In this document: positions 2 through 5,687 of the stretch, piece after piece
Layout: each line of letters begins with the position of its first letter
How positions within the stretch are numbered: position 1 is the first letter of the stretch
Assembly: GCA_947372405.1 (NCBI GenBank)
Contig: CANBTO010000362.1
Location: 1-5,687 of the forward strand
DNA: 5,687 bases
Reading direction: 5' to 3'
DNA from: Verrucomicrobiaceae bacterium
GTDB taxonomy: Bacteria; Verrucomicrobiota; Verrucomicrobiae; Verrucomicrobiales; Akkermansiaceae
Position numbers and translations under genes: made by a program
Notes under the pieces: model-generated
The model's input: the letters and a program-made list of their open reading frames with translations, nothing else
The model's database searches: none
What the model was told of the DNA's origin: nothing

Positions 2-3000
2 CTTAGCATTGCTGCGGGAACCATCATTTCGGACCGGGCCACCGCAGGCGCCGGACTCACCCATGCCTTTGCCGGGAACCTGGCGGTTTCAAACGCCATC
101 CACAATTTCACGGCGGGGACGAATGTAACTAGCGGAACCGCTGCCATCCAGCTTGGCAATATCACCAATGCATCAGGCAGCGGCGGCGCTGCGACATTCA
201 ATCCCACCACGGCCAATCTCATCATCACGGGCGGTTATACTGGTGTTACCAACACCGGCACGAACAACTTGGCTTTGGGTGGAACCAGCTCAGGAAACTC
301 CATCGCCGGGGACATCACGTTAGGCAGCCGAACCACCATTAACGTCACCAAGTCCGGCAACAGCGTCTGGACCCTCTCCGGCACCCACGGTGCCCTCGCC
401 GGCACCACCACCGTCACCGGCGGTGCGCTGATCACCACCAAGCAAGCGGCGCTTCCCAACAATAGCGCCGTCACTTTCAACGGCGGTACCATCGGTGCAG
501 TGATGGGAACCAGTCCCACGAACTGGTCAACCAGTGAGGTGGATACCCTTTTGTCCACCGCCACCAAGACCGCCGGAGCCCTGGGCCTTGACACGACCAA
601 CGGCGACCTCACCCAGTGGACCGCCTTCGACTCCGCCACCAACTTTGGTGCACTTGGACTCACCAAACTCGGTGCCAATAAGCTGACGCTCAATTCAGCC
701 GGCAACACCTACACCGGTACTACCACCATCGATCAAGGCACCCTCGAGCTAACGACCAACCACTCGCTCTCCGGTGGCCTCACCTTCGGATTCGGTGCAG
801 GAAACACCTCCAACACCGGCACCTTGGATATGACGAATGCCAACGCCACCTTCGGCGGCCTGAGCGTCCAGACCAACTCGGCGAGCAACAACGTCATCAC
901 CATCGGCAGCGGCAAGACGCTCACCCTCACCGGCAGCGGCGCCTCGGTGTTCAACGTGGTCCATGTGGGAGTCGCGACCCCGGGTTCATCGAAGCTGACG
1001 GTCACGGGTGCGACCGGCATCCTCACCGTCAACGATGCCACCAAAAACTTCACCGTCGCCAGCAACAGCGCCACGGCCGGCACCACCAGCCAGACGATGG
1101 ATCTCTCAGGGCTTGGCACCTTCAACGCGACCGTTTTGAACCTTTCCGTCGGAAACCCGCGCTTGGTCGGCGGCACAACACCGACAACTGGCATCGTCAT
1201 CAGCGATGTCCTGGCCCTGGCAAACAATAATACCATCAACGCCAGCGCCGCCATCGTCGTGGGTGGATCACCCACTACTGGTGGTGGCGGCACAGCTTTG
1301 CCTGCTAAGTTGATCCTTGGCACGACGAACGTTTTGAACGCCAGTTCGTTCGTGCTCGGCAGCAGCCGCATTTCAGGCACGATGGAGTTCAACACCGGCC
1401 TGACCACCCCCACCGTCACCCTCCGCGGGGCGGCGGGTGGAAGCGCCCGGACGGATATCTACCTTGGTGACCAATTCAACCTCCGAGGCGCCTCCCAAGC
1501 CGCTGGTGGAAGCACGGCCGACCTGGGCAAGATGGATTTCACCGGCGGTTCGGTAGATGCCAGAATCGGAAGTCTCTTTGTGGGTTATGGCGCGGGGGTA
1601 ACCAGCAACATCCGTGCAGGCGGCAACGGCAGTTTCACCATGAATGGGTCTTCCAGCAATGTGGATATCAACACCTTGGTGATTTCGCAGACGAATGATG
1701 ACAATGTAGCATCGACCAGCAACGTCACCGGCATCGCCAGCACCGGCAGCTTCACCATGATCAACGGCACGCTGCAGGTGAACACGGCGGCAACGCTCGC
1801 CAATGACGTAGACACGACCAACACCACCAACAGCCAGCAGGGCCTGTCCGCCACTTTCAACCTCCAGGGCGGAACCGCCACCATCGGTTCCTTGTCCACT
1901 CCCGTGAACTTGATCCTTGGCAATCACGTCAACGCTGGCAACTCCGGACTGGCCACCGCCACCGTGAGCCTGACCGGCGGCACCCTTAATGTCTTCGGCG
2001 ACATCAAGGAGGGTAACCTTGGGGCCGGAACGATCACCTCCTCGCTGGCGCTCAACGGAGCCACCGCCATCCTCGACATGAAGGGTGGGAACATCACCAG
2101 CGTGGACACCATCACCTACACCGACGGGACACTGAAGAACCTGGGCGTCGTCAACACCGACGTGATCTTGGCCGGGACCGGCTCCCGTGTTTTCGATCAG
2201 GCCACCGGCGTCAACGGTGAAATCCAAGGTATTGTTAGTGGCTCTGGCCTGGGGCTCACCAAACAGGGCGACGGCAAGCTCACGCTCTCCGGCCAAAACA
2301 CCTACAACGGCACCACCACCATCAACGGGGGAACGCTCGAATTGAACAACGCCGCCGACAATACGCTGCCAGACACCGGAGCCGTCGTGCTGGCCAATGT
2401 GGCCGGGGCGATCCTGCATCTGAATCACGATGACACTATCGGCTCGCTGGCTGGAGGTGGTATCACTGGAGGCAATGTGGAGCTTGTCAACCAGCACCTG
2501 ACGGCGGGTGATGCCACCAACACCACCTACGACGGTGTGATCAGCGGCAACGCCACCTCCCAACTCATCAAACAGGGCGCAGGCACCCTCACCCTCACCG
2601 GCGTGAGCACGTATACTGGCGACACCAACGTCAACGCCGGCACGCTTCTGGTCAACAGCCCGGGTTCACTGGATTCCGCCAACGCGGTGGTGGTCAACAA
2701 CTCCGGCACCCTCGGTGGCAACGGCGCGGTCGGTGGCGACGTCACGGTCTCCGCCGCCGGAAATCTGTCACCCGGTGCGGCTGCGGGCTCTGCTGGCACG
2801 CTGGCCATCGGCGGTGGACTGGATATCAGCGCCCAGGCTGGCGGTGCGGGCACACTGATCTATCAGCTCGATGCGCTGGCTGGAACCAATGACAAGATCG
2901 CCGTCGGTGGCACGTTGACCATCGGCAGCGGGGCTCTTGGTATGAACGACTTCGTCTTCACCAACCTCGGGGGACTGCAAGCCGGCACCTACAAGCTCAT

Positions 3001-3592
3001 CACCAGTGGAGCACCCGTTAGCGGCACGCTTGATCCCGCGAACCTCACCGGCACGATCGGGTCCTTCAATGCCACCCTTCAGATCAACGGCAATGACATC
3101 GAACTCGTCGTCAGCAGCGGTACCACGCCCTATGACACTTGGGCCACTAACAAGGGACTGACTGGCGCAAACAACGCCAAGGATGCCGACCCGGATGGAG
3201 ACGGCCATAACAACCTCTACGAATTCGCCTTCGATGGAAACCCGCTTTCGGGTGCCAGTGATGGCAAGATCGTGAGCAAGATCGCCACGGTCGGTTCTGA
3301 CCAAGTGCTCACCCTGACCTTGCCCGTTCGCAGCGGTGCCGCCTTTGCGACTGACTCCGGCGACCTGCTTTCCAGCTTGATCGACGGCATCTACTATCGC
3401 GTCGAAGGCAGCGCGGATCTCGCCAGCTTTGCGGAAACCGTCACGGAAGTCACCGGAGGAGACGCCACCACCATCCAGACCGGCCTGCCCGCGCTCTCCA
3501 GCGGCTGGACCTACCGCACCTTCCGGGTTTCCGGAACAGTGCCGACGGTTTCGAAGGACTTCATGCGCGCCAAAGTCAGCGAGACGCCCTGA
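2..3592 (+). CDS. Giant secreted autotransporter-associated beta-strand repeat protein, 5' end outside window
   Basis: The frame is open from base 2 to the TGA at 3590-3592, giving 1196 visible residues; the start and any signal peptide lie upstream. An in-frame TTG at 269 is not a credible start, because the same Thr/Gly/Asn-rich coding sequence continues before it. Four PATR-type repeats (pattern LTKxGxGxLTLSGxNTYxGxTTIxxGTLxL) lie at visible residues about 112-147, 217-253, 749-786 and 853-885. Residues 902-925 carry the GTLGGNGxVGGxVTV...LSPG pattern that usually follows such repeats. Between repeats two and three is a long degenerate beta-rich stretch. The last about 155 residues form a separate module with a DPDGDGHNNLYE loop. 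I saw no cysteine and no C-terminal beta-barrel. By family, this should be an exported beta-helical surface or extracellular protein; adhesin, matrix and passenger roles all remain possible. The family call is firm, the role is unknown. Confidence 0.9.
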   Translation, partial: LSIAAGTIISDRATAGAGLTHAFAGNLAVSNAIHNFTAGTNVTSGTAAIQLGNITNASGSGGAATFNPTTANLIITGGYTGVTNTGTNNLALGGTSSGNSIAGDITLGSRTTINVTKSGNSVWTLSGTHGALAGTTTVTGGALITTKQAALPNNSAVTFNGGTIGAVMGTSPTNWSTSEVDTLLSTATKTAGALGLDTTNGDLTQWTAFDSATNFGALGLTKLGANKLTLNSAGNTYTGTTTIDQGTLELTTNHSLSGGLTFGFGAGNTSNTGTLDMTNANATFGGLSVQTNSASNNVITIGSGKTLTLTGSGASVFNVVHVGVATPGSSKLTVTGATGILTVNDATKNFTVASNSATAGTTSQTMDLSGLGTFNATVLNLSVGNPRLVGGTTPTTGIVISDVLALANNNTINASAAIVVGGSPTTGGGGTALPAKLILGTTNVLNASSFVLGSSRISGTMEFNTGLTTPTVTLRGAAGGSARTDIYLGDQFNLRGASQAAGGSTADLGKMDFTGGSVDARIGSLFVGYGAGVTSNIRAGGNGSFTMNGSSSNVDINTLVISQTNDDNVASTSNVTGIASTGSFTMINGTLQVNTAATLANDVDTTNTTNSQQGLSATFNLQGGTATIGSLSTPVNLILGNHVNAGNSGLATATVSLTGGTLNVFGDIKEGNLGAGTITSSLALNGATAILDMKGGNITSVDTITYTDGTLKNLGVVNTDVILAGTGSRVFDQATGVNGEIQGIVSGSGLGLTKQGDGKLTLSGQNTYNGTTTINGGTLELNNAADNTLPDTGAVVLANVAGAILHLNHDDTIGSLAGGGITGGNVELVNQHLTAGDATNTTYDGVISGNATSQLIKQGAGTLTLTGVSTYTGDTNVNAGTLLVNSPGSLDSANAVVVNNSGTLGGNGAVGGDVTVSAAGNLSPGAAAGSAGTLAIGGGLDISAQAGGAGTLIYQLDALAGTNDKIAVGGTLTIGSGALGMNDFVFTNLGGLQAGTYKLITSGAPVSGTLDPANLTGTIGSFNATLQINGNDIELVVSSGTTPYDTWATNKGLTGANNAKDADPDGDGHNNLYEFAFDGNPLSGASDGKIVSKIATVGSDQVLTLTLPVRSGAAFATDSGDLLSSLIDGIYYRVEGSADLASFAETVTEVTGGDATTIQTGLPALSSGWTYRTFRVSGTVPTVSKDFMRAKVSETP
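335..442 (+). repeat. PATR-type protein repeat 1 (degenerate)
   Basis: Visible residues 112-147 read TINVTKSGNSVWTLSG, then LAGTTTVTGGALITTK. This matches the autotransporter-associated beta-strand repeat, but the usual NTYTG turn is replaced by a longer GTHGALAG segment. Confidence 0.65.
650..760 (+). repeat. PATR-type protein repeat 2
   Basis: Visible residues 217-253 contain GLTKLGANKLTLNSAGNTYTG followed directly by TTTIDQGTLEL, a clear match to the autotransporter-associated beta-strand repeat with one or two extra residues before NTYTG. Confidence 0.85.
2246..2359 (+). repeat. PATR-type protein repeat 3 (near-consensus)
   Basis: Visible residues 749-786 contain LTKQGDGKLTLSGQNTYNG and then TTTINGGTLELNN. 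This is the best consensus copy in the protein and comes about 1.5 kb after repeat 2. Confidence 0.9.
2558..2656 (+). repeat. PATR-type protein repeat 4
   Basis: Visible residues 853-885 contain LIKQGAGTLTLTGVSTYTG followed by DTNVNAGTLLVN. It lies about 310 bp after repeat 3 and leads into the GTLGGNG...LSPG closing pattern at 2705-2776. Confidence 0.88.
3125..3589 (+). other. C-terminal module with calcium-loop motif, in place of an autotransporter barrel
   Basis: This is a protein region, visible residues 1042 to the end. It opens with TPYDTWATNKGL and has a DxDxDGxxNxxE loop (DPDGDGHNNLYE, bases 3188-3223) of the dockerin or EF-hand-like kind. A beta-rich part follows with YYRVEGSADL, then GWTYRTFRV, and the protein ends FMRAKVSETP. 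I recall similar DGDGxxNxxEYAF plus YRVExSxDL endings on many secreted verrucomicrobial proteins, so a role in sorting or surface attachment is possible. That role is inference. No hydrophobic anchor, LPXTG or PEP-CTERM motif is visible. Confidence 0.6.
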
Positions 3593-3699: not shown

Positions 3700-5028
3700 T
3701 TGCCGCGCCAGCTGGATCGCTTCAACCTGTGCGCGATGATGAACCGCTTCTACGGGGAATTCGACACGCAGCGCCGCTCGGGCAAATGTGATTCGGGAGA
3801 TTACCGCTCTCCGTTCCAGATCGACCGCGACCGCGTGCTGCACACGCCGACCTTCCGCCGTCTTCAAAACAAGACGCAGGTGTTCTGGAGTGGTGAGTAT
3901 GATTTCTACCGCACGCGGCTGACCCATTCTCTGGAAGTGGCGCAGATCGGGAAATCCATCTGTCACTGGCTGAGATCGCCGGCCGACGGCCCGCTGTCGC
4001 CGGATTTCTTCATCGACTCGGATCTGGTGGAGGCCGTTTGTCTTTCCCATGATCTCGGACATCCGCCGTTCGGCCATGCGGGTGAGCGCACCTTGAACCA
4101 CCTGATGCGCGGTCACGGCGGCTTCGAGGGCAACGCGCAGACGCTGCGTCTGCTTACCGAGCGGATTTTCTCGGCCAAACGCAGTGGCATGGACCCGACA
4201 CGCGCGTTTCTCGATGGCGTGTTGAAATACAAATCGCTGTGGACCGAACTCGCCACCGCGCACGGATCACCGCCGGAACACCACTTCATCCATGACGACC
4301 AACACGCACATCTCGATTGGGCGATGGGTGGTCACGACTTCCCGCTCGAACTTCCGCCCGGCAAGGCGCGGGACAAGTTCAAATCCATTGAATGCCAGGT
4401 GATGGATTGGGCGGACGACACCGCCTACTCGCTCAACGATCTATCCGACAGCGTGCGCGCCGGGTTCCTCAACATTGAGAAAATCGAGGCATGGGCCGAG
4501 ATGCATGGTCATCCCACAGGCGAAGGCACGCCGCTCGGTGATTTGATGAAGTCCATCCGCCGCAAGCGCGTGGACCCGTTTGTCGGCAAACGCATCGGCC
4601 GCTACATCCAGGCCACGAAGTTGGTGGCGGACGTGAATTTCCTCAGCGCGGAGACGAACCGCTACCGCTACCGCCTGGTCATCGACGAGGAGGTGAAGGC
4701 GGAGTCGTCGTTGTTCAAGCGCCTGGCCTTCGAGGTCGTGTTCCTCTCGCCGCAGTTGAAACAACTCGAGCACAAGGGCAGCCGCATGCTCCGGCACCTG
4801 TGGGAGGTGCTGCACCAACGCTACGTGCTCGGAGAAACCATCGACGGGCAGGACTTCCAACTCCTGCCCGCGGACACCGCCGCCGAAATCTCCGCGGCTC
4901 CGGACGAGGCGGGACGCGCGCGGCTCGTGTGCGACTTCCTCGCCGGCATGACCGATGGCTACGCCGCCCGCACCTACAAGCGCCTCTTCACCCCGGACTT
5001 CGGCTCGATCGGCGATCTGATCGGTTAG
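3700..5028 (+). CDS. dgt: dNTP triphosphohydrolase, dGTPase family (HD domain)
   Basis: The 442-residue product should hydrolyse dGTP or other dNTPs to the deoxynucleoside and triphosphate in the cytoplasm, lowering dNTP pools. The family hallmark FQIDRDRVLHTPTFRRLQNKTQVF spans residues 39-62 (given here only to identify the region). The HD metal site is complete: H76 in RLTHSLEV, H117-D118 in SHDLGHPPFGHAGE, and an aspartate in MDWADDTAYS (D239 or D240). H126 and E129 fit the catalytic pair known from E. coli Dgt. FEGNAQ (142-147) and the C-terminal MTDGYAARTYKRLF (417-430) are also family features. Length fits the shorter dGTPase-like class. TTG 3700 was chosen for its ribosome binding site; ATG 3736 or 3739, giving M(M)NRFYGEFD, would match the usual family N-terminus and stays possible. 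A terminator upstream suggests its own promoter, which I could not identify. Its last ten codons recur at 5464. Confidence 0.93.
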   Translation: MPRQLDRFNLCAMMNRFYGEFDTQRRSGKCDSGDYRSPFQIDRDRVLHTPTFRRLQNKTQVFWSGEYDFYRTRLTHSLEVAQIGKSICHWLRSPADGPLSPDFFIDSDLVEAVCLSHDLGHPPFGHAGERTLNHLMRGHGGFEGNAQTLRLLTERIFSAKRSGMDPTRAFLDGVLKYKSLWTELATAHGSPPEHHFIHDDQHAHLDWAMGGHDFPLELPPGKARDKFKSIECQVMDWADDTAYSLNDLSDSVRAGFLNIEKIEAWAEMHGHPTGEGTPLGDLMKSIRRKRVDPFVGKRIGRYIQATKLVADVNFLSAETNRYRYRLVIDEEVKAESSLFKRLAFEVVFLSPQLKQLEHKGSRMLRHLWEVLHQRYVLGETIDGQDFQLLPADTAAEISAAPDEAGRARLVCDFLAGMTDGYAARTYKRLFTPDFGSIGDLIG

Positions 5029-5071
5029 ATAAATGTCTGCCGGGTCAGAAAGAGTCGACTAATAGGATGTC
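4996..5071 (+). repeat. Direct repeat, copy 1: 3' end of dgt plus downstream bases
   Basis: GACTTCGGCTCGATCGGCG at 4996-5014 is identical to 5464-5482. Similarity continues through the dgt stop codon (GTTAGA, about 20 of the next 30 bases match). After a gap of about ten bases it resumes at TCGAC-N-AAT...TGTC (5055-5071 against 5514-5529). Here the repeat encodes the real dgt ending DFGSIGDLIG-stop. The two copies are 468 bp apart and enclose the small immunity-like gene. Confidence 0.8.
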
Positions 5072-5075
5072 AGGC
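5054..5075 (+). repeat. TCGA..ATAGGATGT motif, copy 1
   Basis: GTCGA (5054-5058), three extra bases, then ATAGGATGT (5062-5070) and CAGGC. The same GTCGA and ATAGGATGT blocks recur, joined without the extra bases and followed by TAGCC, at 5639-5657. A poorer version is at 5513-5529. Confidence 0.5.
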
Positions 5076-5080
5076 ATCCT
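5064..5080. promoter_or_regulatory. Short inverted repeat just before the immunity-like gene
   Basis: AGGATG and CATCCT form a perfect 6-bp stem around TCAGG, ending six bases before the ATG at 5087. In RNA it would sequester the only AGGA upstream of that start, which in any case is about 19 bases away and too far to act as a normal ribosome binding site. There is no T tract, so it is not a standard terminator for dgt. A protein-binding palindrome or translational hairpin is possible. Confidence 0.45.
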
Positions 5081-5086
5081 CACACC

Positions 5087-5488
5087 ATGGCCAGGATTTC
5101 ACCTCAACGACTCGACAAGCAGGCGCACATCGCATTGGCGCGACGGGCTGCCGAGTCCGCCGGGCGTGTGCTCGCGCACTTCGAGGTCCGGTATCCCAAT
5201 GACAACCGGCCTCGCAGAGCCATCGAAGCGGCTCGCGCCTGGGCACGCGGTGAGTTGTTGATGACCGATGCGCGCGTCGCGGCATTCGCCGCACATGCCG
5301 CTGCCCGTGACGCCGGACACCCCGCCGCTCGATTCGCCGCCCGGGCCGCAGGTCATGCTGCGGCCACTGCGCACGTCGCGGGGCATGCACGTCACGCCGA
5401 CGCATACGCCGCCAAAGCCGGTGCTGCTGCTGCTGACGAGCCACAAAGTGACGACGAGAAGCTGACTTCGGCTCGATCGGCGGGTTGA
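5087..5488 (+). CDS. Imm5-like putative immunity protein, probably with altered C-terminus
   Basis: This encodes 133 residues rich in Ala, His and Arg, probably all-helical and cytoplasmic, with no signal peptide or membrane segment. The segment FEVRYPNDNRPRRAIEAARA (32-51) followed by WARGE, then AAHAAAR (68-74) and AAGHAAATAHVAGHA (87-101), matches what I recall of proteins annotated as putative immunity protein (Imm5-like, predicted from polymorphic-toxin loci). Family function is largely predicted, not shown. Homologues as I recall them continue further and end in a different helix; here the last residues TSARSAG are an out-of-frame reading of the duplicated dgt end at 5464, so the native C-terminus is probably lost. 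The ATG at 5087 has no good ribosome binding site, and no toxin gene is adjacent. It may be a decaying or captured gene; the strong coding pattern through residue 118 argues for a real gene. Confidence 0.72.
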   Translation: MARISPQRLDKQAHIALARRAAESAGRVLAHFEVRYPNDNRPRRAIEAARAWARGELLMTDARVAAFAAHAAARDAGHPAARFAARAAGHAAATAHVAGHARHADAYAAKAGAAAADEPQSDDEKLTSARSAG

Positions 5489-5529
5489 TTTGTTAGAAAA
5501 ACGTCCGCGCGGCTCGACGAATCCGTGTC
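5464..5529 (+). pseudogene. Direct repeat, copy 2: displaced 3' end of dgt
   Basis: The first 19 bases are identical to 4996-5014, and the left boundary is sharp: bases before 5464 do not resemble dgt. Read in the dgt frame it gives DFGSIGGLIC and then TAG at 5494-5496, against DFGSIGDLIG and TAG in the intact gene, so the last ten codons and stop survive as a remnant. Similarity then fades through GTTAGAAAAACGTC and reappears at TCGACGAAT. The immunity-like gene reads through its first 25 bases in another frame and stops at 5486-5488. Confidence 0.75.
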
Positions 5530-5643
5530 CGCACGCCCGCGTATTTCCACGTTGCGGACAAGAGCATCGCACCAACGCCACATGGACACGGAAACCTCCG
5601 TTTGGCAGGTGACTCATCGCTTTACAACACCAAGATTCGTCGA
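5514..5643. repeat. Nested inverted repeats in the gene-free tail
   Basis: TCGACGAAT (5514-5522) is the exact reverse complement of ATTCGTCGA (5635-5643). Directly inside it, TCCGTGTCC (5522-5530) is the exact reverse complement of GGACACGGA (5584-5592). Alternatives that compete with the second stem are TGTCCGCA (5526-5533) with TGCGGACA (5553-5560), and ACGGA (5588-5592) with TCCGT (5597-5601). The set could fold as one long interrupted stem. No open reading frame of note and no T tract are present. It may be a small fold-back element, a recombination site or a structured RNA. Confidence 0.5.
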
Positions 5644-5657
5644 ATAGGATGTTAGCC
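5639..5657 (+). repeat. TCGA..ATAGGATGT motif, copy 2
   Basis: GTCGA is followed directly by ATAGGATGT and TAGCC, echoing the block at 5054-5075 just upstream of the immunity-like gene. TAGG and CCTA (5645-5648, 5656-5659) make a weak 4-bp dyad at the place where copy 1 has its 6-bp dyad. Confidence 0.45.
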
Positions 5658-5671
5658 TAGAAAGAAAAATA

Positions 5672-5687
5672 GAACCGCAGATGGACT
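5672..5687. repeat. Possible start of a CGCAGAT-type intergenic repeat, cut by window end
   Basis: GAACCGCAGATGGAC resembles the opening of ACCGCAGATNNACGCAGAT-type tandem repeats that I recall from intergenic DNA of verrucomicrobia and planctomycetes. Only the first unit is inside the window, so this is weakly supported. Confidence 0.25.

Follow-up and report, generated by a model that had tools for sequence, protein, structure and literature searches.

The end of the dgt gene is present twice in the window (the whole stretch of Verrucomicrobiaceae DNA that we analysed, 5,687 nucleotides), on either side of one small gene, imm, of an immunity-protein family. This duplication of the dgt end is real, and the locus looks more like the scar of a one-off local duplication than a new mobile element. 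The features of the locus are as follows.

3700..5028, + strand: dgt, a dGTP triphosphohydrolase-like gene with HD and HD_assoc domains (TIGR01353); the start codon is uncertain
4996..5040, + strand: proximal repeat copy, comprising the last 10 dgt codons, the stop TAG and 12 further bases (from alignment and shuffles)
5050..5073, + strand: segment B, in the dgt-imm spacer (20/24 identical to 5632-5655)
5087..5488, + strand: imm, an Imm5_like gene (PF21805), 133 aa (111.4 bits against a cut-off of 25; profile positions 3-116 of 129)
5463..5464, no strand: probable new joint, bordering the distal copy on its left (attC would begin 3 bases further on in the aligned homologue P0003)
5464..5508, + strand: distal dgt-end copy, apparently decayed (from alignment and comparison with relatives)
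5509..5631, no strand: spacer of the second copy, without significant similarity to dgt or imm
5632..5655, + strand: segment B', the second copy of B (from alignment to 5050-5073)
5651..5687, no strand: left end of a MITE-like, dispersed palindrome, cut short where the window stops (approximate boundary)

The genes of the locus

The gene order runs from a repetitive ORF at the left edge, ending at 3592, through dgt and imm to a geneless stretch that reaches 5687. The left-edge ORF (2-3592) is long, at 1196 codons, open at its left end and rich in short direct repeats, and we take it to resemble an autotransporter-type repeat protein. The dgt gene scored 314 bits against TIGR01353 (cut-off 152) and 385 bits against the anti-phage dGTPase model NF041026, just below the cut-off of 400 for that model. 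PADLOC gave a dGTPase match for dgt at 6.7e-126. The closest dgt found, in a Luteolibacter MAG (L001), was 89% identical in protein and 83% in DNA, and dgt DNA identity was 81.5-83.3% in five compared species of the family. Judged by dgt, the window belongs to a Verrucomicrobiota genome.

On the strength of its profile match, above the curated cut-off, the imm product is assigned to Imm5_like. Its conserved core is intact. A C-terminal truncation of imm was considered and rejected: the last 13 profile positions are absent, which is normal in this subfamily, since several close homologues (P0008, P0010, P0011, P0013, P0014, P0016 and P0017) are naturally 114-120 aa long. PADLOC gave no match for imm, the imm alignment found no relative in the PDB at E 0.01, and no toxin gene was recognised within the window. 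Genes of the imm type were found in 14 of 260 family genomes, and three imm relatives in viral contigs.

If made, the imm product would be an orphan immunity protein directed against a toxin of neighbours, to judge from its family only. Imm5 proteins are described as being mostly alpha and as having DYW deaminase and CdiAC partners, and tandem immunity genes as forming polyimmunity loci (PMC3482391). Both orphan and tandem-array immunity genes are described there, and the window likewise holds an immunity-family gene, over the cut-off for PF21805. However, Imm5 is PF14423 and not the PF21805 of the window, and polyimmunity loci are tandem arrays whereas a single imm, without a toxin gene, was seen in the window.

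The dgt end flanks imm on both sides

The preliminary description of this DNA held that the 3' end of dgt occurs twice, flanking one small immunity-like gene, and both parts of this claim stood: the gene matches the PF21805 profile, and the two dgt ends align without gaps over 45 bases (4996-5040 and 5464-5508) with 37/45 identical, far above shuffled sequence. The local alignment scored 51, and the best of 2000 dinucleotide shuffles reached 26. The 19-base exact match that had been reported (4996-5014 and 5464-5482) was confirmed and lies at the left edge of this alignment; identity within the dgt coding tail and stop was 28/33. Weaker similarity had also been described downstream, and with one gap the match does extend to about 5515. 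On its left the repeat has a sharp boundary, at 4996 and 5464; on its right the boundary is fuzzy. With as many as 3 mismatches allowed, the 19-mer matched nowhere else in the window, and two matches to it were found in 0 of 200 shuffles.

The distal copy had been said to keep the dgt reading frame. DFGSIGGLIC followed by TAG can indeed be read at 5464-5496, but that frame is unused there, as the imm ORF crosses the copy in another frame. The final 8 or 9 residues of imm are thus the distal dgt-end copy in a different frame, with the protein ending ...KLTSARSAG before a TGA stop at 5486-5488. Homologues of imm align in parallel up to the joint at 5463|5464, and their tails are unrelated thereafter.

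The proximal copy matches other dgt genes, and the distal copy looks decayed. Over the 33-base tail, the proximal copy was nearer to 71 of 78 relatives, the distal copy to 5, and 2 were tied, as expected if the distal copy had been free to decay. At the five tail positions where the copies differ, the proximal copy agreed with the 53 nearer relatives at an A (53/53) and a G (51/53); agreement at the remaining three was mixed, with the distal base slightly the commoner at 5017 (28 vs 25).

A second pair of segments and the joint

A second pair of similar segments, unnamed in the preliminary description, was found at 5050-5073 (B) and 5632-5655 (B'). The pair scored 28, a narrow margin over the maximum of 25 in 5000 shuffles. 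Since the dgt end and B are both paired, the second copy extends past the gene end into the spacer adjacent to imm. The segment starts lie 54 bases apart in the first copy and 168 in the second, which gives the second copy 114 more spacer bases. The B pattern with up to 2 mismatches was found at 4 places in 3 of 20 genomes, which bears on the idea of a promoter or dispersed motif, and a 23-base version was matched in 2 of 254 genomes. On the minus strand, B (window 5050-5078) reads MPDILLVD, which resembles a response regulator start; the near-identical B match in G008 is a response regulator start on the other strand (MPHILLVED), and the match in G120 is not a response regulator.

No imm-like sequence was seen in 5509-5687 (score 16, equalled or exceeded in 279 of 300 shuffles). 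Two candidates within this region were rejected. A 41-base match to dgt 4812-4852 was reached by 22 and 26 of 300 shuffles, and weak DnaK-like (PAYFH), BNR-like and other matches, which would have made 5509-5631 a patchwork of gene fragments, were what the size of the search leads one to expect. Rfam gave zero matches in the window.

The last ~36 bases of the window match many places in relatives, with a best E of 7e-8 in G005. The MITE-like repeat at 5651-5687 reads CCTAGAAAGAAAAATAGAACCGCAGATGGACT and has many copies in G005, G011, G002 and others. Among the matches listed, eight pairs lay in opposite orientation 128-240 bases apart, and two copies of the repeat have inverted arms (L139 1511-1661 and L144 1513-1624). 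The repeat starts directly after B', which would explain why the second copy breaks off there.

Tandem duplication as the preferred reading

We give roughly even credence to a tandem duplication of a 468-bp unit consisting of the dgt end, the spacer and imm, with a second copy that has decayed and been interrupted by the dispersed palindromic repeat. In the starting state, imm would have lain directly downstream of dgt. The unit at 4996-5463 would then have been copied head to tail, creating a joint at 5463|5464 at which the end of the upstream imm copy was fused to the second dgt end. A replication template switch at the foot of an attC hairpin could, as a guess, have started the duplication; it would fit in position alone, because only 3 bases separate the joint from where an attC hairpin would begin in the aligned close homologue P0003. 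Thereafter the second copy would have decayed, gained ~114 bases and been hit by the dispersed palindromic repeat after B', and an imm copy or its remains would be predicted beyond base 5687. The function of dgt would have been left untouched, with imm taking the copied dgt end as its C-terminal codons.

In favour of this reading, the segments are paired, the joint is sharp and falls within the imm frame, and in both copies the dgt end is followed by B in the same orientation, as looked for at a tandem-duplication joint. The closeness of the proximal copy to relatives, the parallel run of imm homologues up to the joint and the dispersed repeat at the end of B' also favour it. The absence of the arrangement from every other dgt locus tested is consistent with a one-off event. 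Known joints of tandem duplication and gene amplification likewise show a direct repeat and a new joint inside a reading frame, around a unit that here is imm plus a flanking gene end. The window differs from these in that a second gene copy is unseen within it, and in that 114 extra bases and a dispersed repeat interrupt the pattern. Several points count against duplication. The decisive part of the second copy, imm, is not seen up to 5687, with the 114 extra bases unexplained; the B/B' match covers 24 bases and only narrowly exceeds shuffled sequence; and a single-crossover insertion of a circle carrying the dgt end yields identical anatomy. The divergence of the copies (8/45) is about that seen between species in the family, so import from another species is equally possible.

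Comparison with other dgt and imm loci

Such an insertion, in which a small circle of imm and a dgt-end copy entered the dgt 3' end by a single crossover (through an integrase in trans or homologous recombination), so that dgt was restored and its old end displaced, seems to us somewhat unlikely. Some islands, such as SGI1 at trmE, are known to use the 3' ends of protein genes (PMC8409611), and they share with the window a gene end on both sides of a foreign gene, the first copy of which keeps the host gene whole. The direct gene-end repeat, its exact 19-base block and its sharp left edge would fit an entry of this kind, as would the paired segments, their order and the joint if the circle carried the spacer as well as the dgt end. 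However, the window differs from these islands in its 468-bp unit, with no recombinase gene between the two copies, and in its lack of recurrence at dgt in the 76 testable relatives. B', too, is part of the second copy and lies outside an att-like core, and the distal end, which would be the old end, is the one altered at the near-invariant A and G positions of the tail.

For the comparison with relatives we collected 80 dgt loci from other genomes, with up to 5 kb on each side. The dgt stop was present in 78 of these (L061 and L077 were cut), and 76 had enough downstream sequence to test, with at least 4 kb in 56 and less than 1 kb in 5. A second dgt end was found in 0 of the 76 within up to 4 kb downstream, a range that larger elements would escape; the best second match of each relative to its own dgt end covered 20-27 of 48 positions, vs 38 in the window. 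Each relative has one dgt end and neighbours unlike those in the window, and dgt neighbours vary widely among the 19 near relatives listed. The small imm gene was encoded at 0 of the 80 loci. Downstream of dgt there were 121 ORFs, 74 of which were searched against Pfam, matching 64 families; no recombinase was among the 25 of these 64 families listed. These results do not support the integrase-style entry at the dgt 3' end, comparable to that at tRNA genes, which the preliminary description had proposed.

The description had also raised the possibility that the unit recurs, and the other imm genes did not bear this out, apart from unclear cases. Of 17 imm loci, 15 could be placed for a test of flanking direct repeats (L088 and L090 had no match), and 12 of these did not exceed 100 mononucleotide shuffles; the dgt-end copy of the window itself lay outside the compared part. 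Two loci were marginal (L081, 27 vs a shuffle maximum of 26; L083, 36 vs 35), and L082 scored 230, from imm-like repeats near its partial match. In L082, a viral contig, imm-like sequence lies on both sides of the partial match at ~5001-5330, perhaps representing tandem imm genes or internal repeats. A degenerate dgt-end pattern had zero matches in viral contigs, and plasmids gave one weak dgt match.

A search for the 19-base core elsewhere had been suggested. With up to 2 mismatches, the 19-mer was found in 99 of 254 family genomes. Among the matches listed, exact copies occurred once per genome, five of them at dgt (G001, G003, G007, G011 and G017), and near-matches reached 7 in one genome (G116), above a reversed-pattern control. 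A clean dispersed repeat was rejected on the single exact copies, yet the near-matches exceed the control. Thus, of the two outcomes that had been named as contrary to insertion, a dispersed 19-base core unrelated to dgt and relatives with a longer small gene but no second copy, neither was cleanly found.

Immunity genes and integron cassettes

A different origin for the arrangement, which we hold to be distinctly unlikely, is that imm arrived as an integron cassette, put by the integron integrase into a non-classical site that overlaps the dgt stop (GG|TTAGAT), and that its attC was later lost, the dgt-end copy taking its place. Some close imm homologues look like they end in attC read-through peptides. 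Among the five closest, P0003 and P0005 have tails that contain HALQRT. A search with only the P0003 tail gave matches in other genomes. In 2 of the 6 loci examined, the DNA there is a 93-base attC-like palindrome that has R'' and R' boxes; between its outer boxes L178 (465-557) has 1 mismatch and L185 (1027-1119) has none. A HALQRT-like peptide adjoins an integron integrase in L105 (667-790). These tails suggest that in Verrucomicrobiota integrons probably carry Imm5_like genes as cassettes. Cassettes are reported to integrate at chromosomal attG sites (Loot et al. 2024, via PMC11023631), and the 5' border in the window, GTTAGAT at the dgt stop, fits GTTRRRY; this is weak support, because 7 of 79 dgt ends (including that of the window) have GTTRRRY.

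In the family to which G001 belongs, 84 of 254 genomes had an integron integrase above the TIGR02249 cut-off, and several had two or more; signals below this cut-off occurred in nearly all genomes and in 14/14 controls. At E 1e-40 an integron integrase was present in G400, G526 and G597, but none was found in G326 and G457 (the genomes of the two clear attC matches) or in G255 (which has the closest imm, at 75%). Three simple home-made scans, short of a calibrated attC model, detected no attC in the window. The first scan was too strict to count, because it gave zero matches everywhere, known integrons included; the second gave low-quality candidates only, in four loci, and the third gave one site (in L105, and the same place again in L126). 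No attC was found at imm in the imm-bearing family loci covered by the first two scans. The window thus resembles integron gene cassettes in its size, its one gene, the attC-type tails of close homologues and GTTRRRY at the 5' edge, but cassettes have attC at the 3' edge, where the window has a dgt-end copy instead, and cassette insertion alone does not duplicate the dgt end.

A combination of these ideas, in which a recombinase-less 468-bp unit was moved in trans by a tyrosine integrase of this integron-rich family, from an integron or otherwise, and landed in the dgt stop region with the dgt-end copy replacing attC, is very doubtful. Chance similarity, convergent terminator-like sequence or an assembly artefact is scarcely credible: the distal copy does form a terminator-like hairpin, the joint is a short one and the DNA probably comes from a metagenome contig, but the alignment score is about twice the shuffle maximum given above (51 vs 26), and the 8/45 differences between the copies are unlike an assembly duplication.

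Implications

As an ordinary duplication scar the locus is of minor import, a case of a gene end captured as the C-terminus of the neighbouring gene. Were the insertion reading true, the dgt end would be a new landing site and imm part of a very small immunity-gene unit. The more testable lead is that Imm5_like genes are probable integron cassettes in Verrucomicrobiota, which would connect polymorphic-toxin immunity with integron arrays.
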